From the IMG/VR virus record IMGVR_UViG_3300030380_000823, positions 1 to 56,781 of that record: a stretch of 56,781 nucleotides of DNA, one strand, 5' to 3'. A model generated the notes under the pieces. It saw only the letters and a program-made list of their open reading frames with translations, ran no database searches and was not told where the DNA came from. The stretch comes from a virus. A program made the position numbers and the translations under genes. Shown here piece after piece: positions 15,702 through 56,781 of this stretch; positions within the stretch are counted from its first letter, which is position 1, and each line of letters starts with the position of its first letter.

Positions 15702-16412
15702 CTATGTGAAGTCGTAATACTCCCTATCCTGCGTCTTCAAAGACCCTTCATTTGGCCTACGTTCTGCTACCGGCACTGAAATAGATATGCGTTTTGTCTT
15801 GGGTATAGCCCTGTGTTTAATCCCTTTCGGTATATACAGCAGGTCGCCTACAGTGAGGTCGAGCGATGTGGAGTCGCCATCATCGTTCTCAAAGCTGTTG
15901 TGGACTTCCCAACTAACGTCCCCTTGAGCATGTACTAAGAAGTTATCGTCATAGTCAATATGGGCACTAAACGTTGAGGCGTTGGACACACCGCTGCAAT
16001 AGAAATGTGCGTCCGCTGCGCCCATATAGTAGCGTTCAATAGCACCCGCAATCATGCTGATCCTCGGTGTCAATAGAGATGCTTTAGTCAAGATCAGAGA
16101 GCCGCCTTGTGTCCAAAGGTCATGTAGGTACTTCTTCTCGTAGTAATCCTTACGGCTCCAGTTGGGTCTGCTCTCGCGTTCGAGGTTGCCCTGTTCCATA
16201 CACAGTTTTCGCCCATCTAGGGTAATCGCCTGCATACCGGCGGTTGCTCTGTCGTTGTTGATGTAGCTGCTGAATTGCTGCCAATCTATGATGTTGTCGA
16301 ACAGTTCTGTTCGAGCCTCGGTTCGAGGAAACACGGCAAAGGCTTTGCCACGATGCTTCTCTTCAAATTCAACGACTGTCATGGGCGCAATCAGGTCTGC
16401 AAAATCTAACAT
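15702..16412 (-). CDS. JmjC/cupin-type Fe(II)/2-oxoglutarate oxygenase, 236 aa
   Basis: The start is ATG at 16412 (MLDFADLIAPMTVVEF), which overlaps the upstream stop by one base (TAATG); a longer reading from 16481 would run into the upstream gene. The double-stranded beta-helix signature is SAHIDYDDNFLVHAQGDVSW, giving His151-x-Asp153, then GDLLYIPKGIKHRA with His200 as the distal iron ligand. This is the arrangement of bacterial JmjC/cupin-4 oxygenases that hydroxylate proteins. Substrate is unknown; a host ribosomal or phage protein is possible. It is the last gene of the leftward arm, just before the terminator. Confidence 0.75.
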   Translation of the reverse strand: MLDFADLIAPMTVVEFEEKHRGKAFAVFPRTEARTELFDNIIDWQQFSSYINNDRATAGMQAITLDGRKLCMEQGNLERESRPNWSRKDYYEKKYLHDLWTQGGSLILTKASLLTPRISMIAGAIERYYMGAADAHFYCSGVSNASTFSAHIDYDDNFLVHAQGDVSWEVHNSFENDDGDSTSLDLTVGDLLYIPKGIKHRAIPKTKRISISVPVAERRPNEGSLKTQDREYYDFT

Positions 16413-16636
16413 TATAGTAATCTCCAAACACGCACACCTGTGTGCGAACCACTTATGACAGCCTTGGCTGTAACGTCCCACCCCATCTCATCTACACAGA
16501 TGCGTTTCACCTGTTGTAAGGCTTTGTTCGTGTTAATGCACGGTATGAATACCGAACTGCCCACCGCCATAGCACCCCAGTCCACCACGATACGTACGCC
16601 ATCAGCGTCTATATCATGTAGCTTCAGCGTTATCAT
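16412..16636 (-). CDS. Small phage protein, 74 aa (GSSVFIPC...VRVWRLL type)
   Basis: A short protein with the pattern VGSSVFIPCINTNKALQQVK ... WDVTAKAV ... GVRVWRLL. This layout (G-S/D-S-x-F-V/I-P, a basic helix, then a beta strand ending in VWR) recurs in many small phage proteins. It is also visible in the 88-aa protein at 28851-29117, suggesting a shared small alpha/beta fold. Function is unknown. It overlaps the end of the primase gene by 23 bases and the start of the JmjC gene by one base. Confidence 0.6.
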   Translation of the reverse strand: MITLKLHDIDADGVRIVVDWGAMAVGSSVFIPCINTNKALQQVKRICVDEMGWDVTAKAVISGSHTGVRVWRLL

Positions 16637-24493: not shown

Positions 24494-24988
24494 TCATACT
24501 GTTAGCTTCAAGATCACGTAAAACAATACTATAGCACAAGAAGTACCAAGCAACGCACCAAGATACTCCCGTGCGAATTGCGAAGAAGTATTCGGCTGTT
24601 CCGCAATAGCCGCAGTCCTAGCTTGTTGCCGGTCTTTCTTAACCTTGTACTTACGGGCAGTGTCCGCGTTCCTTTCAACAATCGCTCTATGTTCTTCGGA
24701 CGTTGCCAGTCGGTAGTTATCCTTACTTACCCGTACAAAGTACCCCTTACTGGTGGCGCTTTGACTAATCCAATCACGTAGCTGCTGCCTGTTTTTGGGT
24801 CTGGTTTTTAAGTCTGAGGCAGGAACCATTCTCCAAATCGCTGTTAACGAGGCACTACCGCCCAGACTAGACATTATGTCGTACAGGTGCGCTGACCTAC
24901 TGCTTTTTTTGACTGGGCGAGGAGCAAGCTGCTCTGCACGGTCTTCAGTAGTTTTGGTTCCAAACATATTTTTTACTTTCGTATCCAT
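24494..24988 (-). CDS. Membrane-tethered protein with N-terminal helical domain, 164 aa
   Basis: The start is ATG at 24988 (MDTKVKNMFG), overlapping the DNA polymerase stop (TAATG). Residues about 30-110 contain helices and a winged-helix-like run (HLYDIMSSLGGSASLTAIWR, RDWISQSATSKGYFVRVSKDNYRLAT). A basic stretch follows, and the C-terminus is a single transmembrane helix (YLGALLGTSCAIVLFYVILK). This suggests a cytosolic, perhaps DNA-binding, domain anchored to the membrane. Direct coupling to the polymerase makes membrane attachment of replication an idea worth testing. Confidence 0.5.
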   Translation of the reverse strand: MDTKVKNMFGTKTTEDRAEQLAPRPVKKSSRSAHLYDIMSSLGGSASLTAIWRMVPASDLKTRPKNRQQLRDWISQSATSKGYFVRVSKDNYRLATSEEHRAIVERNADTARKYKVKKDRQQARTAAIAEQPNTSSQFAREYLGALLGTSCAIVLFYVILKLTV

Positions 24989-26820
24989 TATTCGCAATCT
25001 CCGTATGCGTTTGCTACACCACTCTCACATTCAAGTGGCAACCCTTCGGCCCATGTCGGGACGTACCTCATGCACTTCTCGACGTACTGCTGGGCTTCTT
25101 CTGCTTCAGACTCAGGTACACATGCGATAACTGAGTCGTGAACTGTAAGTACCGCTCGGTACTTGTTATTTATTAAGAGCATCTGGTCACCTATCACACA
25201 CCGTGCTAAGGCTTGGCAGACATTCTCTATGACTTTACCACCGTAAATCCGCGTCCTACCGTTGCGCGTCTTGTAGCTGTACTCCGTACCTTCAGAGTTA
25301 CGCTCCCCACGTAGATCCTGATAACGCATTAGGAGCTTAGACGGTAGACGTATGGCTTCCCGGTTTCCTATAACTTCAATCACACCCTTCTTACCAAACT
25401 GGTAGTTGTCCCCTCGTTCCATAGCGGCAACCATGTGCTGTGCTTCCCGCCACACATGACTAATTCTCCAGTTTGCATCACGGTAGATGTTTATAATCCG
25501 CCGTGCTTCATCAAGTGATATGTCCGTACCAAAAGATTTCAACTGCGCTTGAAACTTGACGGCACCCATACCATAGCCAGCGCCAAGGATCGTGGTCTTG
25601 CCTACGAACCGCTGGTCTTTTGTTATCTGGTCTTCCGATGTTTCGTAGATCCGTGACGCCATCTTGACGTACACATCTTCTTTGTTACGGAACGCATCGG
25701 TCAGATCATCCTGCCCTGCGAACCATGCCAGCACCCGTGCTTCGATCTGCGACGAGTCGCAATCTATGAGTGTGTATCCGTCAGGCGCGACAATGCTTTT
25801 CTTTAACTTCTTACCGTTTGGCCCACGGCTAGGTAGGTTCTGTAGGTTGATCTTGTCATCCCCACCCCACCTACCAGTGTGTGCCGCATAGTACCGAACA
25901 GGAACCGGCAGAGTGCCGCGACCTGCTATGTCTATGAACCGCTGCGTACGAGTCTCTTCCAACGTACTCTTGTTGCCTAGCCTAGCAGCCGCTAGTGCCT
26001 GCACTTCTGGGTTTTCGTGCGTTATAAGGCTCTTGAATCCGTCGTCTGTCTTTGCGAATGCGTAAGCCTCTTTGCCCGTAGTGGGGCTGACCTTGATAGG
26101 TGGTTCGACACCTTTGGAGCGCAGCAGATCAGCAAACTTATCGTTACTCATCAGCTCTTTCTTGTCAGCCACGCCAGCATCACATAACAACTTATCTTTA
26201 TGGAGCTTGATGTCGTATAGGTGATCCTCAAGTAAATCGCAATCTAGCTCCAGCATAGGATGTATAAACATCCGTAACGTGCAGTCGATGATCCTGAGTT
26301 CTTTCTTAGGAAAGCCTTGCTTCAGCAACCGGTTAAACAGCTTGTAGGTAAGCTCTACATCATTAATGCAGTAGTCACCGTAGCTGTCTAACTCGTCATC
26401 AGTGAAGTCTAGGCGACGTTTTCCTAGAGCGTTGAGTATCTCAGTGCCCTTAACGCCTAAATTATACCGTTCCGCGAGCGCCTTGAGACTTCCACCAACT
26501 TCCACCCCATGTACAGCACGGGCAATACAAAGAGTATCAGCCCAAACCCGAGGGCGAATATCAAATAGCCAAGATAATATAGCGCCATCGAACATAGTGT
26601 TGTGAGCCAGCACCATACTGTTAGCCCAGTCAAACCCGTCAAAGTACCTTTTAAGCTCTTCGTGCGTTCCAGAAGCCCACTCCGTGTCACCATTATTTAC
26701 CTTTATCCCTACGCCTACGATCTCAAAACGCGGATCGCGTACGTACTCTTCGGTTGTCATTTTTGTTAGTGAGAAGTCCTTACTATAGAACGTCTCAAAA
26801 TCCAAAGTTATAAGCTGCAT
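24988..26820 (-). CDS. DNA polymerase I (family A) with 3'-5' exonuclease, Leu762-type
   Basis: A 610-residue replicative polymerase. Proofreading motifs: Exo I LDFET (Asp7, Glu9), Exo II AHNTMFDGA (Asp78), Exo III YCINDVELT (Tyr150, Asp154). Polymerase motifs: A LIDCDSSQIEARVLAW, B RFVGKTTILGAGYG (Arg404, Lys408, Tyr416), C LTVHDSVIA. In motif B the residue aligning with E. coli Phe762 is Leu412, the variant common in marine phage polymerases and proposed to alter speed and fidelity. No 5' nuclease domain. Starts exactly at the stop of the oxygenase gene (TAATG). Confidence 0.95.
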   Translation of the reverse strand: MQLITLDFETFYSKDFSLTKMTTEEYVRDPRFEIVGVGIKVNNGDTEWASGTHEELKRYFDGFDWANSMVLAHNTMFDGAILSWLFDIRPRVWADTLCIARAVHGVEVGGSLKALAERYNLGVKGTEILNALGKRRLDFTDDELDSYGDYCINDVELTYKLFNRLLKQGFPKKELRIIDCTLRMFIHPMLELDCDLLEDHLYDIKLHKDKLLCDAGVADKKELMSNDKFADLLRSKGVEPPIKVSPTTGKEAYAFAKTDDGFKSLITHENPEVQALAAARLGNKSTLEETRTQRFIDIAGRGTLPVPVRYYAAHTGRWGGDDKINLQNLPSRGPNGKKLKKSIVAPDGYTLIDCDSSQIEARVLAWFAGQDDLTDAFRNKEDVYVKMASRIYETSEDQITKDQRFVGKTTILGAGYGMGAVKFQAQLKSFGTDISLDEARRIINIYRDANWRISHVWREAQHMVAAMERGDNYQFGKKGVIEVIGNREAIRLPSKLLMRYQDLRGERNSEGTEYSYKTRNGRTRIYGGKVIENVCQALARCVIGDQMLLINNKYRAVLTVHDSVIACVPESEAEEAQQYVEKCMRYVPTWAEGLPLECESGVANAYGDCE

Positions 26821-27329
26821 TAGCTTTGTTCCTTTTGTTTAGTAACCTCAAACACCTTGTCTTTCTTTTTCTGATAGATGTTAAGGGTGTATCTCGGTTC
26901 CTTTGTTTTGTTGTGGTAAAAATGTAACTGGCCCGTGTTGCGCCATGTCACCAAGCGGTTAGGACGCCAGACAATTTCCTCCATAACCTTGCCCTGATCG
27001 CCCCTGTCTTCTTTCAAGAAATACGTCCCGTTACCAATCTTTGGGCGCAGGTACACCACAGAGCTAACTAACTTGCTTGGGTGGTCGTAGTGTAGGTGGT
27101 ATTGGTATTCTGGCCCACAGCGTACAACACCCGCTGAGAAGAACCCCTCGGCCTTGGCTACCTTATCTTCGTAGCACTGCTTGATTCCCTGACACACGGA
27201 CTCGTCTAAATCTGCTTCAAACTTTTTCGCTTCTTCCGTCCCATCAATGAATCGGTACGACAAGCTATGGATGTCCCGTATAAGTCTGTCGTAAAGATCA
27301 GGGTATAAGAAGTTATCTACTATCTTCAC
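26820..27329 (-). CDS. 2-oxoglutarate/Fe(II)-dependent oxygenase, 169 aa
   Basis: A compact prolyl-hydroxylase-like dioxygenase: YQYHLHYDHPSKLVSSVVYL supplies His80-x-Asp82. GQLHFYHN supplies the distal His (His136), and EPRYTLNIYQ supplies the 2-oxoglutarate-binding Arg146, ten residues later. The length is short but complete for the core beta-helix. It overlaps the COQ4-like gene by 4 bases and the polymerase by one. Substrate unknown; the tight coupling to COQ4-like and radical SAM genes suggests action in one pathway (inference). Confidence 0.78.
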   Translation of the reverse strand: MKIVDNFLYPDLYDRLIRDIHSLSYRFIDGTEEAKKFEADLDESVCQGIKQCYEDKVAKAEGFFSAGVVRCGPEYQYHLHYDHPSKLVSSVVYLRPKIGNGTYFLKEDRGDQGKVMEEIVWRPNRLVTWRNTGQLHFYHNKTKEPRYTLNIYQKKKDKVFEVTKQKEQS

Positions 27330-28045
27330 TTGGCGTTCTCTTTCGCCGCACGTAGCTTAGTCATTAACGCTTTGTACCTTGTGGGCTGACGTACACCGAT
27401 GCTTTGCTGCACGATCTCTAATGGTTGGTCTAACAAGACAGGCCAATCTATGCCTGCAAGCCACTCTGATTTTCTGCCGTGCCAATACGCCTCGAAGGAC
27501 GCGCTAAGGACACCCCAGCCCTTCTTCCTAGCGTGGGTTATGGTCATGGGTATGGTCATTGCGATGATGCCTAGATTCGCAAAGTTACCGTGCAAGAACC
27601 AAAGGAGTACCACCTCACCGAAAGGGTTACGCTCGTAACCGGTGACCGTATGCGTCAGATCATGCTGATCTCTGTACCACTTGATGTAGGTATTAAACCC
27701 TGACTCTGATGGCTTCTCGCCTTTGCCCTTAGTATCCCCCGCAAACTGTGCGGTGGAACGGCTTGTTTCTATTAAGAACTTCGAGTATTCGTTGCCAAGA
27801 CTACCGGCAGGCATAACCCGTAATCTGTACACATCATCTAATACGTTAACCAGAGACTCTCTGCCCGCGATTACACGAGAACCCAAAGGCGTATGTCTGA
27901 ATACATCGTACTGCTTACGCACCGACTTGGTTGACAGCCAGTTAAAAAGGATGAACGCCGCTTCCAGATCATCTGGATCTTTATATAGACGGCGTAACGC
28001 ACCGCCCACTTCACGCCACTTTAGTTTGAACTTTGCTATATCCAC
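27326..28045 (-). CDS. COQ4-like protein (ubiquinone biosynthesis family), 239 aa
   Basis: The diagnostic COQ4 metal-binding motif HDxxH-x11-E is complete: HDLTHTVTGYERNPFGE with His128, Asp129, His132 and Glu144. It is preceded by RVMPAGSLGNEYSKFL, which matches the family's R-x-P-x-G-S/T-L-G-x-E-Y segment. COQ4 acts in coenzyme Q biosynthesis in mitochondria and some bacteria, where it binds a metal and a lipid ring precursor. A phage copy could change host quinones or act on another ring compound. It is shared between overlapping neighbours (10 bases with the radical SAM gene, 4 with the oxygenase). Family membership is well supported, function in the phage is inference. Confidence 0.78.
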   Translation of the reverse strand: MDIAKFKLKWREVGGALRRLYKDPDDLEAAFILFNWLSTKSVRKQYDVFRHTPLGSRVIAGRESLVNVLDDVYRLRVMPAGSLGNEYSKFLIETSRSTAQFAGDTKGKGEKPSESGFNTYIKWYRDQHDLTHTVTGYERNPFGEVVLLWFLHGNFANLGIIAMTIPMTITHARKKGWGVLSASFEAYWHGRKSEWLAGIDWPVLLDQPLEIVQQSIGVRQPTRYKALMTKLRAAKENAK

Positions 28046-28860
28046 TTTTTATACCCCTCAACAATTTGCGGTTTTGCACATGGGACATCACACGATGCAC
28101 AAGGCGCAACAGCATCTCTGTTCCCGTTTATAAGCTCGGTAGAGATACGACGTAGCTCTTCGTTATCGCGCCATTCTCTGAACAGGTTTACATCTTTGAC
28201 GTTGGCGAAGCCGATCTGATGCGACCAATCGTTGCAGCACATCTGCAACTGTCCATCGAAGTTAATGAATATGCCCCTCATGGGATGAACGCATGGCCCC
28301 TTCACAGCAGTACCGCCAGCTATCAACCCAGCCCTGTGATTGAATTGATGCTTCCATCTAATCGGCCTACCCTTCGGGTCAGCATAATCAGGAAGCTCAT
28401 TTACATCCTCAACTGACCCGCCGTCAGGCTTCCAATAGTCCTCAATCCGCTCACCGTTATCTAGGCGTGGGTACTTCGTACGTCTGGCGAAGAAATCTTC
28501 TTCTGTCGTGTAGGTGTTCAGCACAAGGTTGTCTAGCTGACGATAGTATTTCCAGTAACGATCAAGTCTCCAGCCATTAGTTGTTACCTGTGCGCGGTAT
28601 CTTCTGGGCTTACGGAGAAGACGCTGTATTATCTTCTCGAATTTTGGATTGTTGGTGCTTTCCCCTCGACCTGCCAGTATGACAGTACCATCAAAGCGCC
28701 ACTCTTCGATCTGATCCATGATCCGAGCAAACAATTCCAGACTCATGTTCTGGTTGTTGTTGGGGTATATGGACGCATCAGACCGTGGGCAGAACGAACA
28801 GGTACGGTTACACAAATCTGTAATGTTTATATCGACCTGTAGCACACCCTCTAAGTCCAT
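28036..28860 (-). CDS. Radical SAM protein with SPASM-like C-terminus, 274 aa
   Basis: The N-terminus holds the cluster motif CNRTCSFC (Cys17, Cys21, Cys24; CxxxCxxC) after a VDINITDLC strand. ILAGRGESTNNP (about 62-72) fits the SAM-binding GGE-type motif. The C-terminal part has further cysteines: Cys190 (GPCVHP), Cys208-Cys209 (QMCCNDW), Cys254, Cys257 and Cys261 (CASCDVPC), which look like an auxiliary SPASM/twitch iron-sulfur site. Such enzymes modify peptides, sugars or small molecules. No obvious small precursor peptide is adjacent. It overlaps the COQ4-like gene. Confidence 0.85.
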   Translation of the reverse strand: MDLEGVLQVDINITDLCNRTCSFCPRSDASIYPNNNQNMSLELFARIMDQIEEWRFDGTVILAGRGESTNNPKFEKIIQRLLRKPRRYRAQVTTNGWRLDRYWKYYRQLDNLVLNTYTTEEDFFARRTKYPRLDNGERIEDYWKPDGGSVEDVNELPDYADPKGRPIRWKHQFNHRAGLIAGGTAVKGPCVHPMRGIFINFDGQLQMCCNDWSHQIGFANVKDVNLFREWRDNEELRRISTELINGNRDAVAPCASCDVPCAKPQIVEGYKKWI

Positions 28861-29117
28861 GTTTTGCCGTCTTTTTCTGTCAGCCAGATGCGATGTTCGC
28901 CATCATTACTTATCTTACGGCTCGTAATGTTCCAGCCCCTACGTTTGGCGGACACGCGAAACGCACGTACTTTATGCCCATAGGGATCGTCTACGACAAA
29001 CGAGTCCCCCAGATTCATACGGTCTAACGTGTTCTCGTATGCACGCTGGTGACTGTACTGCTTATCAAACAGCAACACACCTTTCTCAATCACGATCTTT
29101 TCGAGTTCAACACTCAC
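28851..29117 (-). CDS. Small phage protein, 88 aa (GDSFVV...RIWLTE type)
   Basis: A GTG start at 29117 overlaps the upstream stop (GTGA). The pattern LGDSFVVDDPYGHKVRAFRV, SAKRRGWNITSRKI, EHRIWLTE parallels the 74-aa protein at 16412-16636: small residue + SF, basic helix, then a strand ending in W. This is a recurrent small phage fold of unknown function, possibly nucleic-acid binding because the middle is Arg/Lys-rich. It overlaps the radical SAM start by 10 bases. Confidence 0.55.
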   Translation of the reverse strand: MSVELEKIVIEKGVLLFDKQYSHQRAYENTLDRMNLGDSFVVDDPYGHKVRAFRVSAKRRGWNITSRKISNDGEHRIWLTEKDGKTWT

Positions 29118-32480: not shown

Positions 32481-33815
32481 TTAGTGGATCTCCGCTGGAT
32501 CAATGTGTACGACCTTGCCGTTGTCGGGAGTCGCATGTTTGTTGTCGATCACACACCACAGGGTTGGGCAGTCCCATGTACCCCAGTCACCGAACAGGTA
32601 ACCATCGGTGAGGATGATCGTTGCTTGTGGCTTGATCTGATGCTGCTGCATGTGCTCGACCACGCACTCAACATCGGTACCGCCGCCACCTCGGGGTTTG
32701 GTAGATTGCGCCAGCGTGTCTAGCTCGTGGGACTCGTATGACTCGTCACCCACAACCTTGTGACCCCAGTACAGTAGGCGAACCTTGTCGGGCTTGACCG
32801 TAGTGCAGATCGACTGAACTTCTGACAGGAACACAGCCAGATCAGCGTCGGGGATAGACCCTGACGTATCAACAGCAATCACAAGCTCATCGACCTTCTC
32901 GCTGATACCGCTAGGCATATAGACACCGGCACCAATGTATCGACGGTTGGGACGTTTCCATGTGGAGTAGTCGTTGCCAGTACAGGTTGTCTGAATGAAC
33001 TCGCGCAGTACCTCACGCCAATCGACCTGCGATTGCATAAGCTCATCGAGTAGACGATTGCCCGTAATGCCCGACTTGCCAGCGATAATGCTGCCCTGAC
33101 GTATCGCTATGTCTACCTCTTTCTCAAGCTCTTTGACTTCATCGTCTGACAGGTTATCTGCACCATCCCAGTCGTGCTCATCGAAACCCCGTGGCTCGTT
33201 GCCTTCTGGCTCTCCGTTACCGGAACTCCGTGAATCGGTTGGTTCACCGATACCGTCATCGTCACCGCCCTTGCCGGTAGGTGGAAATGGGAAACCGCCG
33301 CCACCTTTGGGCGGTTGCTGCGTACCATCATCCAATGTCTTGAAGATCACAGCAGTATCAGACCATGATCCATCGGGCTTGCGGAACTGTTCATCGTACA
33401 GCCCCATACGTTCGCCTACGTGTTCGCCATCTTTGTAGATAGGCATAGTGGCAAAGCCATCCTCTCGGTTCTCATCGACCAGCTTGCCGTTGATGTTGTA
33501 GTCGCATGACGCATTAGCGAGTTTGTGGTTCTTGTCGTGCAAGTGTTTCCACGTTATCAGGTGCCGGTACATCTTGTGATAGCACTCATGCAGTATCACG
33601 AAGCGAAGCTCGGCATCGGTCAGGGAATCAACGAACGCTCGACCATAAGTCTCGTCACGCCCGTTGGTACATGCAGTTGGTACGTCATCGCTGACAGTCT
33701 TGCTGCCTACCATGAGTACACCAGCCAAGGCCATGTACCGTGGGTGAGCAGTAATAGCTATCACTGCTTTGGTGATCCGCTGCTCGGCGGTCAGTTGTTG
33801 GTTTAGTGCTAACAT
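32481..33815 (-). CDS. DUF2201-type HExxH metallopeptidase fused to a VWA domain, 444 aa
   Basis: The N-terminal domain contains RFVILHECYHKMYRHL with His76-Glu77-xx-His80 and a downstream ASCDYNIN segment that could add a metal ligand, the arrangement of DUF2201 putative peptidases. An acidic Gly/Pro-rich linker follows (about 165-235). The C-terminal VWA-like domain has the MIDAS motif AVDTSGSIPD and GGGGTDVECV. Proteins of this make-up pair with MoxR-type AAA+ ATPases (as CobT pairs with CobS) to act on metal cofactors or protein complexes. The MoxR gene lies just upstream. The ribosome binding site AAGGAGATAAC is strong. Confidence 0.85.
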   Translation of the reverse strand: MLALNQQLTAEQRITKAVIAITAHPRYMALAGVLMVGSKTVSDDVPTACTNGRDETYGRAFVDSLTDAELRFVILHECYHKMYRHLITWKHLHDKNHKLANASCDYNINGKLVDENREDGFATMPIYKDGEHVGERMGLYDEQFRKPDGSWSDTAVIFKTLDDGTQQPPKGGGGFPFPPTGKGGDDDGIGEPTDSRSSGNGEPEGNEPRGFDEHDWDGADNLSDDEVKELEKEVDIAIRQGSIIAGKSGITGNRLLDELMQSQVDWREVLREFIQTTCTGNDYSTWKRPNRRYIGAGVYMPSGISEKVDELVIAVDTSGSIPDADLAVFLSEVQSICTTVKPDKVRLLYWGHKVVGDESYESHELDTLAQSTKPRGGGGTDVECVVEHMQQHQIKPQATIILTDGYLFGDWGTWDCPTLWCVIDNKHATPDNGKVVHIDPAEIH

Positions 33816-33956: not shown

Positions 33957-35060
33957 TTACACCTTGTCCGCTGCGAACATGTAGCCGTTCTCTATAGCCC
34001 ACTGAGTAAACAGCTTGCTCTGCATAACCATAGACTGTCTGGCTTTGTTGTATCTGCTGGATCGAACACCGTTGGCGAACAGACCTTGAGCTTCTTTGTC
34101 CAGCCGATCCACGTATGTCATCCACGCATCAATCCAATCACGCTCCACCGCAGCCAGTGCTTTGAACACCACCATGCAGGTAGCAGCTACGGACGTTGGC
34201 ACCGTGGCATTGTCGGGATCGTTCTTGATTGACTCCAATGACGGTAGCTGGTCAGCCAGTTTGAGGAATGCCATAAAGTCTGCGGCGGCTCGGACACCGA
34301 TAGTGCCCATGAGTGCTGCCTGTAACGTGTTATCGTCCAGCCCCTCACGACGTTTCAAGATGTCACTCGCTGCATGTAGTGAACGTGGCGTGCAGAACGC
34401 AGCCCGATCCACAGCTTTGGGGTGAAAGATGTACTGGTTGTCATCTGGATTCGGTACATCGCGGAAGTCTTGCATGACTGCGGAATTCTCTTTGACCCAG
34501 CCCAGTATTGTGTGGTCGAGATCGTTACCAACGCCCCACTCGACCCACTCCATGTGGTCAGGCTTTTTAGTCTCGACCACGGTGATACGGTTACGGGCAT
34601 GTGCAGGTAACAGATCACCCACACCCTCGCTGCCGAGGTTGGTCGTGGCGAATATGATGGAGTCGGGGTGCAGTGTGTAGCTGCCGATCTTACGTTCGAG
34701 GATCAAACGTAGCAGGGCATTCTTGACTGCGGGGTTGGCCTTACCGAACTCGTCAATCATCAGGATGATCGGCTTGTCGTGGTGGGCACCCAATTCCTCG
34801 TTGGTCAGGTACGTCACATAGCCAGTGCCGTCATCCAGCTTGGCGATGTTGGGTATCGTGATGTCACCCAAGTCCTTGGTCGTGCAGTCGAGAAAACATG
34901 CTATGTAATCCGGCAGTGCCTCTGAGATTTCGGTAAGCAGTGATGACTTACCTGTACCCATGTGGCCTTGAAGTAAGACTGTGCGAAGCCGACCGATTGC
35001 CAAGATTAGTGCCTTGGCTTGTTCGAGGCTCAGTGCGTAAGTTTGTTGTGCATAGCTCAT
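33957..35060 (-). CDS. MoxR-family AAA+ ATPase, 367 aa
   Basis: The start is ATG at 35060 (MSYAQQTYALSLEQAKALI) behind GGAAAGGAGATAGCC; the in-frame extension upstream reads through the palindromic element and is not protein. Motifs: Walker A QGHMGTGKSSLL (about 31-42), Walker B IILMIDEFGKA (Asp103, Glu104), sensor-1-like IIFATTNLGSEG and an Arg-containing LLPAHARNRITVV. Typical of MoxR/CobS-like ATPases that remodel a target with a VWA partner. First gene behind the promoter at 35156-35184. Confidence 0.88.
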   Translation of the reverse strand: MSYAQQTYALSLEQAKALILAIGRLRTVLLQGHMGTGKSSLLTEISEALPDYIACFLDCTTKDLGDITIPNIAKLDDGTGYVTYLTNEELGAHHDKPIILMIDEFGKANPAVKNALLRLILERKIGSYTLHPDSIIFATTNLGSEGVGDLLPAHARNRITVVETKKPDHMEWVEWGVGNDLDHTILGWVKENSAVMQDFRDVPNPDDNQYIFHPKAVDRAAFCTPRSLHAASDILKRREGLDDNTLQAALMGTIGVRAAADFMAFLKLADQLPSLESIKNDPDNATVPTSVAATCMVVFKALAAVERDWIDAWMTYVDRLDKEAQGLFANGVRSSRYNKARQSMVMQSKLFTQWAIENGYMFAADKV

Positions 35061-35091
35061 GGCTATCTCCTTTCCGTTTTGTTGTTTTGGT

Positions 35092-35114
35092 TTTGTGTAT
35101 AAGTCATACACAAA
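35092..35114. promoter_or_regulatory. Palindrome P1, TTTGTGTAT-AAGTC-ATACACAAA
   Basis: Perfect 9-bp arms around a 5-bp centre, between the promoter at 35156-35184 and the MoxR start, about 30 nt before the ribosome binding site. It contains TGTGTATAA, the complement of TTATACACA, a perfect match to the DnaA-box consensus TTATNCACA. The flanking GTTGGTTAGTG is also found after the copy at 36771. Could be a DNA operator, a DnaA site or a 5'-leader RNA hairpin. Confidence 0.75.
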
Positions 35115-54541: not shown

Positions 54542-55174
54542 ATGGCAGTCTATACCAACGATTTACGGCTCAAAGAAATTGCCACGGGCGAAGAGTCAGG
54601 TTCGTGGGGCACAAGTACAAATACAAATTTATCACTAATAGGTGACTCTTTAGGTTTTGGTACAGAGGCGATCACGACAAACGCAGACACGCATACATCT
54701 ACTGTAGCAGACGGTACTGCTGATGCTGCTCGTGCAATGTATATTAAGTATACAGGCACCTTGGATTCAGCCTGCACGATCACGATTGGCCCTAATACAA
54801 TAAGTCGGGTTCACATCATAGAGAATGCAACAAGTGGGTCGCAGAATATCATCATCAGCCAAGGTTCAGGTGCTAATGTTACGATTGCTGCTGGCAACGT
54901 AAAAGTAGTGTATTTAGATGGCGCAGGAAGTGGCGCTGCTGTAACCGATGCTCTAGTAGATTTAGACTTGACTGGCACGACCACTATAGCAACAGCAGAC
55001 ATTAATGGTGGAACTGCTGATAATGTTGTTATTGGTGGCAGCACGGCGGCGGCTGGTACGTTTACTGATATTGTGTCTAATGGCAAAACTGTGGGCACAC
55101 AGTCCATTGTTAGCTCGAATCCGACATCTGCCTCTGGGTTCCCAGACGGGCATGTGTTCTACGTCATTAGCTAG
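54542..55174 (+). CDS. Tail-fibre-like protein, 210 aa
   Basis: Starts immediately after the previous stop. Begins MAVYTNDLRLKEIATGEESG and reads SWGTSTNTNLSLIGDSLGFG, a phage tail-fibre opening seen widely (LRLxEIxTGExSGxWGxxTNxNLxLI). The middle is beta-rich (HIIENATSGSQNIIISQGSG). The C-terminal half contains TADINGGTADNVVIGGSTAA, a pattern of repeated fibre shafts, and ends SGFPDGHVFYVIS. Likely part of the adhesion apparatus. Confidence 0.72.
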   Translation: MAVYTNDLRLKEIATGEESGSWGTSTNTNLSLIGDSLGFGTEAITTNADTHTSTVADGTADAARAMYIKYTGTLDSACTITIGPNTISRVHIIENATSGSQNIIISQGSGANVTIAAGNVKVVYLDGAGSGAAVTDALVDLDLTGTTTIATADINGGTADNVVIGGSTAAAGTFTDIVSNGKTVGTQSIVSSNPTSASGFPDGHVFYVIS

Positions 55175-55183
55175 GAACAAACA

Positions 55184-56158
55184 GTGGCTATATTTATTAA
55201 CGACAATGGAACGCTGAAGGAGCTAGATAACGACTCGCAGATTACTGTGGTCGCTACTGCCAATACGATTCATTCGGTGAATTTCATCGTCGTTAATAAC
55301 GGCGGTACGCTGGCTACGGTCTGGAACGCCATATACAACACGACTAGAGCTACTGCGACATCACTCGCAACGGCTACGTCTAACGCTACTCAGACTAGTC
55401 GGTCTACTAGTCAATCAACGACTACATCGTTCAACACTACGACTACGTTTGGCACTAGCAATAACACCACTACGTCGTTCAACACTACGACTACGTTTGG
55501 CACTAGCAAGAACACGTCAACTAGCTATAACACTAGTTTTAATACCACGACTTCGCGTGGCACTAGCAGGAACACGTCAACGTCGTTTAACACGTCTTTC
55601 GCCACGGCCACGAGCAGGAACACTTCGAGGAACACTAGTAGGAACACCAGTCGGAATACATCTAGGAACACGACCACTACGTTTGCTACGCTTTCTGGTA
55701 AAAACAACATAAATACAACGAGAAGCACGGCTACATCGTTCAGTACGTCGTTTTCTACATCGTTCTCTACATCGTTCAGTACGTCCTTTAACACCACGAC
55801 TTCGAGGAGCACGAGCAAGAACACATCTACATCGTTCAACACGTCTTTTGCTACGGCTACGAGTAGAGGCACAAGCAGAAATACATCAACCAGTTTCAAT
55901 ACAACCAGATCAACTGGAACGAGCAAAAGCACCTCGACTTCGTTTAATACGACAAGATCAACGGGCACTAGCAAATCAACTACAACGACTTTCAACACAG
56001 CGTTCGACACCACGACTACGTTCAACACCACAACGACTTTCAACACGAACACTGTTATATTCGAGCGATTAACTGCTACTGGTAATGACACTGAGGTTAC
56101 GTCTGGTAGCGCACATAACGCTAGATATCATGACGGATCGCAATGGACGGAAGACTAG
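55184..56158 (+). CDS. Ser/Thr/Asn-rich repeat fibre-like protein, 324 aa
   Basis: A GTG start at 55184 has AGGAAC upstream. A short folded N-terminus (MAIFINDNGTLKELDNDSQI, residues 1-60) precedes about 235 residues built almost only from Thr, Ser, Asn, Phe, Arg, Lys, Ala and Gly in units such as TTSFNTTTTFGTSN, TSRNTSTSFNTSFATA and TRSTGTSKSTST. The C-terminus (FERLTATGNDTEVTSGSAHN) is again ordinary. The period (about 7 residues or multiples) suggests a beta-solenoid, fibrous or glycan-like surface protein. Function unknown. Confidence 0.65.
   Translation: MAIFINDNGTLKELDNDSQITVVATANTIHSVNFIVVNNGGTLATVWNAIYNTTRATATSLATATSNATQTSRSTSQSTTTSFNTTTTFGTSNNTTTSFNTTTTFGTSKNTSTSYNTSFNTTTSRGTSRNTSTSFNTSFATATSRNTSRNTSRNTSRNTSRNTTTTFATLSGKNNINTTRSTATSFSTSFSTSFSTSFSTSFNTTTSRSTSKNTSTSFNTSFATATSRGTSRNTSTSFNTTRSTGTSKSTSTSFNTTRSTGTSKSTTTTFNTAFDTTTTFNTTTTFNTNTVIFERLTATGNDTEVTSGSAHNARYHDGSQWTED
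55384..56049 (+). repeat. Degenerate DNA repeats coding the Ser/Thr/Asn tract
   Basis: The stretch is built from words such as ACATCGTTCAACACT, ACTACGTTTGGCACTAGC, AGGAACACTAGT and TTTAACACCACGACT, in many near-identical copies. For example GTTCAACACTACGACTACGT occurs at both 55429 and 55474, and ACATCGTTC recurs at 55424, 55731, 55758, 55767 and 55828. Such repeats can recombine and change protein length in frame. Confidence 0.85.
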
Positions 56159-56310
56159 AGGACGAGTTAAAGGCTATAAACAAGCGCATAGAAACAATGC
56201 TAGACATAGTCCTTGAGCATTTCGGTGATGCCGAAGATCGTTTCGATGAGTTAGAAAAGATGATTTCTGATCTGCGCAAGGCTAACGTAGAGACTAAAGA
56301 TGTCGATTGA
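56143..56310 (+). CDS. Short coiled-coil protein, 55 aa
   Basis: ATG at 56143 lies inside the last codons of the repeat protein. Sequence starts MDGRLEDELKAINKRIETML and continues DAEDRFDELEKMISDLRKAN. It has clear heptad spacing and high charge, so it is a probable coiled coil. It overlaps the next gene by 11 bases. Function unknown; by position it could be a fibre chaperone or lysis accessory. Confidence 0.6.
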   Translation: MDGRLEDELKAINKRIETMLDIVLEHFGDAEDRFDELEKMISDLRKANVETKDVD

Positions 56311-56781
56311 CCGGTTAGCTGTTGATGATCGCCTTGGCAACGCTGGGGCGCATTTCTTCAAAAGCGGCAACATTCTTAGAAACCCTAAGTGCAACTCCTT
56401 AAATCTAGCTAGCTTGCTTCCTGATCGCGGCCTGTATAACACCAACCTTGAGTATGATCTTTGGTACTCAATCGGAGGTAACAAAAAAATACATGGCTAC
56501 GTTTATACCGATGCGCTTGAAGACTACTTATACATAAAGCCAGCTAACGTGCATTTCGCTGAAATGGCTATGTATGCAAGTGTAAAGCTTGACCCAACCG
56601 GATATGGCGAAAAGCTAGTTGATCAGATGGGCAAGGGTATTGAAGACAAGTACAGGCTCCGACGCTCAAGCGCAAAGCACAGGTTTGTCATATTCTTGCC
56701 CGGAACCAACTGCATAAAGAAAGTCTTCGATTGGGATAAAGCAAAAGCCGCCGTTGATCAAGGCGCTGTTATAAAGCCTCA
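56300..56781 (+). CDS. Unknown protein, 5' 160 codons (open at right edge)
   Basis: ATG at 56300 (MSIDRLAVDDRLGNAGAHFF) overlaps the coiled-coil gene. Contains LNLASLLPDRGLYNTNLEYD, WYSIGGNKKIHGYVYTDALE and SAKHRFVIFLPGTNCIKKVF, and the frame is still open at base 56781. No family recognised. If the molecule is circular it continues into the membrane-helix fragment at the left edge, giving a 182-residue tail-anchored protein just before the holin. Confidence 0.55.
   Translation, partial: MSIDRLAVDDRLGNAGAHFFKSGNILRNPKCNSLNLASLLPDRGLYNTNLEYDLWYSIGGNKKIHGYVYTDALEDYLYIKPANVHFAEMAMYASVKLDPTGYGEKLVDQMGKGIEDKYRLRRSSAKHRFVIFLPGTNCIKKVFDWDKAKAAVDQGAVIKP

Follow-up and report, generated by a model that had tools for sequence, protein, structure and literature searches.

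The cassette locus and its enzymes

The IMG/VR virus record IMGVR_UViG_3300030380_000823, analysed over its whole length of 56,781 nucleotides (hereafter the window), carries on its minus strand a cassette of three overlapping genes, which encode a radical S-adenosylmethionine (SAM) enzyme (RSAM), a COQ4-like protein and a 2-oxoglutarate (2OG)-Fe(II) oxygenase. With the coordinates of the open reading frames (ORFs) as first read, the order is RSAM, COQ4-like, 2OG and then the DNA polymerase gene polA; RSAM and the COQ4-like gene overlap by 10 bp (28036-28045), the COQ4-like and 2OG genes by 4 bp (27326-27329), and 2OG and polA by 1 bp (26820). Coordinates and family tests thus bear out the original prediction of three overlapping genes from different enzyme families.

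28851..29117, minus strand: orf88, the upstream flank of the cassette insertion; its end ACATGGACTTA is common to the RSAM start, and to the polA start at empty sites
28036..28860, minus strand: RSAM, BtrN-like twitch radical SAM enzyme of 274 aa, cassette gene 1 (Pfam, profile and AlphaFold2 (AF2) model)
27326..28045, minus strand: COQ4-like protein of 239 aa with an intact Zn motif, HDxxHx11E (Pfam PF05019, PDB and tree)
26820..27329, minus strand: 2OG-Fe(II) oxygenase of 169 aa with a predicted prolyl-hydroxylase-like fold, an optional member (AF2 model and PDB matches)
24988..26820, minus strand: polA, the downstream neighbour in the window lineage only (Pfam PF00476, 3e-36)

The three-gene arrangement is not a chance one, because other phages have the genes in that order too, with low ratios of non-synonymous to synonymous substitution (dN/dS of 0.04-0.16 for RSAM, 0.05-0.19 for COQ4 and 0.16-0.31 for 2OG, in pairs with unsaturated dS), and the cassette genes are under purifying selection. 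The key metal and cluster ligands are intact in all three enzymes, as had been predicted, and are invariant across relatives; catalytic residues were not lost across the family and are retained even in a phage type in which the genes stand apart (L027/L068, see below). The description of the three as redox-enzyme families holds less well for COQ4, whose members, as Zn-dependent decarboxylases, are not strictly redox enzymes (PMC7615680).

RSAM matches the Pfam families Radical_SAM (PF04055, 9.9e-13) and SPASM (PF13186, 1.1e-5), and its cysteines C17/C21/C24 (CxxxCxxC) and C190/C208/C254/C257 are invariant across relatives, the latter four in a set of eight phage proteins that reaches down to 36% identity. 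The only conserved cysteines in the C-terminal part of its relatives are C190, C208, C209, C254 and C257, joined by C261 in the close group. A profile built from the phage relatives gave a single clear match, BtrN (1e-10), and the alignment sets BtrN C169/187/232/235 opposite RSAM C190/208/254/257 and BtrN R152 opposite the invariant R176; the numbering of BtrN residues follows this alignment. The four BtrN cysteines are the ligands of its auxiliary (Aux) cluster. Foldseek searches with the AF2 model ranked BtrN (4m7t) first (2.1e-12, TM 0.68), followed by BlsE, sactipeptide thioether synthases and SpeY. On the BtrN profile match, the aligned Aux cysteines and the Foldseek ranking, RSAM is a BtrN-like twitch enzyme with one auxiliary cluster, which corrects the earlier label of a full, two-cluster SPASM protein. 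The distinction between twitch and SPASM domains and the two-electron oxidation carried out by BtrN have been described (PMC9012708). A role as a radical SAM/SPASM maturase of ribosomally synthesized and post-translationally modified peptides was rejected, both because the seven-cysteine SPASM arrangement with two Aux clusters is not found in this one-cluster twitch protein, and because no precursor ORF travels with the cassette, whose flanks are wholly different between its early and late genomic slots. No aminocyclitol or aminoglycoside genes were seen near RSAM.

The COQ4-like protein matches Pfam PF05019 over its full length (3.7e-12, 46.5 bits against a curated cut-off of 22.9), and its PDB matches are Alr8543 6e12 and 3msq. 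The Zn motif H128-D129-xx-H132-x11-E144 is invariant, including in a relative at 34% identity (P0004), and mutation in animal COQ4 has shown that HDxxHx11E is required for C1 decarboxylation (PMC7615680). We fetched 80 bacterial relatives (27-36% identity) with a phage-derived pattern, a sample in which canonical COQ4s of the coenzyme Q (CoQ) pathway are under-represented. In a maximum-likelihood tree, which holds no eukaryotic COQ4, the phage proteins form one group (98/93) inside a large Alpha-, Gamma- and Myxococcota/'Delta' clade, and a long supported branch parts that clade from Alr8543 and the best Pfam-scoring homologues. Judged by this phylogeny, the phage protein belongs to a divergent, often TetR-linked clade of bacterial Coq4-like proteins; a divergent TetR gene adjoins the bacterial gene in at least 32 of 75 loci. 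The clade (L070-L149) includes Parvibaculum, Pseudomonadales and Myxococcota, and supplies the only Coq4 family member in several of the genomes searched.

Neither grouping with a characterised COQ4 nor Ubi/Coq partners, either of which would place the protein in CoQ synthesis, was found, the latter among the window proteins scanned, which were part of all its ORFs. A bacterial origin of the whole cassette was also considered and rejected: no RSAM or 2OG gene lies near the COQ4-like gene at any of the 80 bacterial loci, and a scan of genomes with the RSAM alignment for a bacterial source returned nothing. No relatives of the COQ4-like or 2OG proteins were detectable in 50,697 phage records, cultured phages included, and a PHROG search with the COQ4-like protein returned no Coq4-named family, the best match being phrog_3136 (0.008), of unknown function. 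The COQ4-like proteins of the cassette are the first phage members of the Coq4 family found in this analysis.

The 2OG protein scores below the cut-off for the Pfam family 2OG-FeII_Oxy_3 (PF13640, 6.4e-5, 24.3 bits against 27), and its assignment as a prolyl 4-hydroxylase (P4H)-like 2OG-Fe(II) oxygenase, with HxD..H, R and a double-stranded beta-helix fold, is secured by the predicted AF2 structure (pLDDT 91), whose best PDB matches are 2OG prolyl hydroxylases (4iw3/4j25/PHD2, 2.8e-8). Residues H80xD82, H136 and R146 are invariant among relatives, whereas the protein as a whole varies (50-79% identity). PHROG 274, labelled 'DNA endonuclease V', matches the protein (26820-27329) along its whole length, and that label is probably wrong.

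Distribution and mobility of the cassette

About 20 IMG/VR contigs hold the cassette in the same order, with RSAM proteins 85-92% identical. A search for the three genes together in other phages thus found them mostly together and not always apart, and for the conserved three-enzyme unit no known phage pathway was found, as the original prediction had stated. Most relatives carry the cassette in a late slot on the plus strand, in the order spanin, RSAM, COQ4, (2OG), lysozyme, directly downstream of tail genes. The early slot, between orf88 and polA, is occupied in three phage types only (the window, L001 and L174/L175). Among 80 polA contigs, 77 have no cassette gene, and in about 70 of these more than 300 bp are covered before polA, so that the slot is seen to be empty; at such sites orf88 or orf83 directly precedes polA. 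Where orf88 does so, the junction with polA reads ACATGGACTTAATAAC; in the window, the letters ACATGGACTTA recur and lead into RSAM. The orf88-end letters shared by the RSAM and polA starts place the insertion within a microhomology between two start codons. The coupling to the DNA polymerase gene on which the original prediction laid weight is therefore a lineage-specific insertion, incidental and not conserved, most relatives having either a lysis-operon cassette or none.

The cassette is mobile, occupying two genomic positions within a marine podovirus-like group. RSAM and COQ4 are its core and 2OG is optional, the latter being missing from both a late-slot (L006) and an early-slot (L175) type; the predicted three-gene unit is real and conserved in this qualified sense. 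The window RSAM has its nearest relatives in late-type phages (up to 97% per 125 bp), the window COQ4 in the early-slot phages L001/L175, from which it follows that the two cassette types recombine. In a different phage (L027/L068, with a Prim-Pol and an Sf6-like small terminase), RSAM (65%), 2OG (39%) and COQ4 (34%, motif intact) lie unlinked within 5.6 kb. The ORF that follows polA (24494-24997) is fast-evolving (47-48% among relatives); apart from the phages with an early-slot cassette, only L226 and L242 among the 80 polA contigs have it.

The portal protein, 39-44% identical to those of HTVC023P/HTVC027P, indicates a related podovirus backbone. The window is a circularly permuted, near-complete genome whose ends are bridged by contig L252 (1-7907 and 55502-56781), with about 3.1 kb missing between them. 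Adjacent genes for a DUF2201 metallopeptidase/VWA protein and a MoxR-like AAA ATPase lie at 32481-33815 and 33957-35111.

Genes associated with the cassette

Two further sets of genes accompany the cassette, a second oxygenase gene and a tail module.

15702..16481, minus strand: JmjC_2 oxygenase gene, unlinked to the cassette and associated with it (Pfam PF08007, 1.6e-9)
54542..56781, plus strand: cassette-associated tail module, common to cassette-bearing phages
54542-55174, plus strand: short fibre adaptor, part of the tail module
55184-56158, plus strand: repeat protein rich in Thr, Ser and Asn, capped by conserved sequence at both termini, with 27 NxS/T sites; it adjoins the adaptor, which is truncated
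56300 to the contig end, plus strand: start of the T291 protein, part of the tail module, as is a 55-aa ORF before it

The JmjC-type oxygenase gene mentioned in the original prediction is statistically associated with the cassette. It is present in all four cassette-bearing contigs that are long enough, namely the window, G018 (early slot, 78%), G012 (late, 84%) and G050 (late, 76%), and in none of 22 cassette-less polA-type contigs, of which 21, counted from their coordinates, cover 12 kb or more beyond polA, the region in which the gene would lie. Fisher's test on 4/4 versus 0/21 gives about 8e-5, ignoring the relatedness of the contigs. The ORF as annotated is probably 23 codons too long, with a likely start at codon 24 (~16412), as most relatives match from residue 23-24 (MLDF...).

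In the tail region, cassette-bearing phages encode a 210-aa adaptor, then a repeat protein of 274-401 aa, then further genes without family assignment. The repeat proteins contain 32-37% Thr, 13-18% Ser and 9-12% Asn, with 22-27 NxS/T sites. G021 and G025, which lack the cassette, instead have one fibre of 1119-1346 aa that begins with the adaptor domain, and T291-type tail genes, found in every cassette-bearing contig that reaches them, are missing from both. Two apparent exceptions were resolved: L261 is identical over 3,676 bp to G018, which has an early-slot cassette and in which the tail module is thereby seen as well, and L252 matches the first 7.9 kb of the window at 99.9% identity. Compared gene by gene, the window backbone is that of the cassette-less G020/G021 (mostly 70-97%), whereas its JmjC gene, cassette and distal tail genes (W52929/W53219, 94-98%) are shared with G012, whose replication module differs in having a Toprim/DnaB-type primase-helicase. 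In this small sample of related phages, the link between tail module and cassette is suggestive. T291 and hyp232 were considered as glycosyltransferases from a KPHP motif seen by eye; Pfam, NCBIfam and PDB gave no support, and the assignment was not used.

What the cassette might do

Our tentative preference, held well short of conviction, is that the cassette enzymes tailor the tail fibre, or else a precursor with a part in host recognition, and that the three may form one modification pathway serving host recognition or the virion. With a 5'-deoxyadenosyl radical and its twitch cluster, the BtrN-like RSAM would carry out a two-electron oxidation of a C-H/C-OH (or similar) centre; a hydrophobic or aromatic carrier might be bound at the Zn site of the COQ4-like protein and there be decarboxylated or tailored in another way; and hydroxylation of the final target would fall to the 2OG and JmjC oxygenases. 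The likeliest candidate for that target would be the repeat fibre rich in Thr, Ser and Asn, or a precursor joined to that fibre. The fuller version, an undescribed post-translational or glycan system in which a BtrN-like RSAM, a repurposed COQ4-fold Zn enzyme and P4H-like and JmjC oxygenases decorate a low-complexity Thr/Ser/Asn-rich fibre needed for host binding, is more doubtful. Several observations weigh against such tailoring. The window cassette sits in an early operon, apart from the tail genes, and the tail association amounts to about eight cassette-bearing lineages against two fully covered cassette-less contigs, all of them related, so that host-linked co-inheritance is an alternative account of the covariation. 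Enzymes of the P4H or sactisynthase type usually act on Pro or Cys, residues that the repeat protein almost lacks; neither T291 nor hyp232 could be placed in a family with Pfam, NCBIfam or PDB; and we know of no COQ4 family member that acts on protein or glycan.

The cassette could instead alter host quinones or lipids, the COQ4-like protein decarboxylating a prenylated hydroxybenzoate or similar lipid that RSAM and 2OG oxidise further, so that respiration or the membrane of the infected cell is changed by an altered or diverted quinone. The only known context of COQ4 is CoQ synthesis, the motif needed for Zn-dependent C1 decarboxylation (PMC7615680) is intact and invariant, an early slot suits host takeover, and the tail association would follow if the substrate were limited to certain hosts; indeed, a host-linked metabolic use would yield identical tail covariation. 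We nevertheless regard a quinone role as rather unlikely, given the long supported branch that separates the phage proteins from Alr8543 and the best Pfam members, the bacterial clade's frequent TetR neighbours (32 of 75 loci) in place of ubi genes, the lack of another Ubi/Coq gene among the window proteins scanned, and the use of aminocyclitols by BtrN-type enzymes. Host recognition is favoured over it because of the late slot beside tail and lysis genes, the covariation with the tail, and the radical SAM cassettes reported inside the host-recognition (tail-fibre) clusters of pelagimyophages (PMC7029224).

That the nearest folds of RSAM (BtrN, then BlsE and SpeY) all belong to antibiotic-pathway enzymes suits a pathway in which RSAM and COQ4, with or without 2OG, make or modify a soluble metabolite unrelated to the virion (a sugar, cyclitol, amino acid or signal), for example a superinfection-exclusion or anti-defence compound. 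Such a pathway would also agree with a self-contained cassette that moves between operons and with a variable (50-79% identity), optional 2OG that resembles a diversifying tailoring enzyme. It is unlikely, however, as no sugar/cyclitol, amino-transfer or export genes travel with the cassette and the covariation with tail and JmjC is left unexplained. Ordinary auxiliary genes, useful independently of each other, parked at a hot spot in the lysis operon and transferred a single time, would account for the optional 2OG and for the recombination of RSAM independently of COQ4, and marine phages often carry 2OG genes (PMC9599517); a lack of any common pathway is nonetheless improbable, since RSAM and COQ4 occur together wherever both sides are visible, at two positions, and co-occur unlinked in a different phage type. 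Modification of DNA or nucleotides coupled to polA, suggested by the position of the cassette directly before that gene in the window, has become the least likely of the functions originally proposed and is highly improbable: the polA link is confined to three phage types, the slot is empty in about 70 relatives, most cassettes are late, and no thymidylate synthase, hydroxymethylase, pyrophosphorylase or modifying transferase was found among the proteins scanned, which were part of the ORFs.

Novelty and comparison with known systems

A literature search found no publications combining coq4, phage and radical SAM. Mobile phage enzyme cassettes are a known kind, and the chemistry of the RSAM-COQ4 unit may be new; the set of cassette, JmjC gene and tail fibre points to an undescribed chemical pathway, perhaps with a tie to host recognition. 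The COQ4 family is discussed almost only in terms of CoQ synthesis, and the phage RSAM-COQ4 pair offers a small, cloneable system for other roles of the fold. The link of the cassette with the repeat fibre and the JmjC gene gives a specific, testable hypothesis, the enzymatic tailoring of a phage host-recognition protein. The cassette also adds a new type of cargo to the multigene transfers between phages, one unit being found in early and late operons with junction microhomology still visible.

RSAM resembles BtrN (2-deoxy-scyllo-inosamine dehydrogenase), together with SpeY, in CxxxCxxC, the four Aux cysteines, R152/R176 and overall fold, but is only ~16% identical to BtrN and occurs in a phage setting without neighbouring aminoglycoside genes. 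The COQ4-like protein shares with COQ4 (PF05019; Alr8543, human COQ4) a full-length fold match, the Zn motif, PxxSLG..Y and the C-terminal W..L motifs, and differs in its divergent bacterial clade and in the lack of CoQ genes among the window proteins scanned. The modelled double-stranded beta-helix, HxD..H and R of the 2OG protein recall Pseudomonas putida PPHD and PHD2-type prolyl hydroxylases, although identity is 12-18%.

At the level of gene clusters, the radical SAM clusters of cultured Campylobacter Firehammervirus phages such as CPt10 include a 28% identical BtrN-like enzyme; CPt10 (L057) has six annotated radical SAM genes, one of them this RSAM relative, and a putative amidinotransferase. 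Such a cluster differs from the cassette in its several radical SAM genes and amidinotransferase, and the stretch viewed carries no COQ4 or 2OG annotation. Pelagimyophage host-recognition clusters likewise set radical SAM genes beside tail-fibre genes in marine phages, but those are myophages, and COQ4 is unmentioned in the consulted part of the source (PMC7029224). A related podovirus backbone is that of HTVC023P-type pelagiphages, in which functionally linked genes move as sets between phages as multigene 'partner AMG' (auxiliary metabolic gene) transfers; their described cargo differs, consisting of curli, DNA hypermodification and 2OG/ferrochelatase sets, and the partner-AMG text mentions no radical SAM or ubiquinone genes (PMC9599517).

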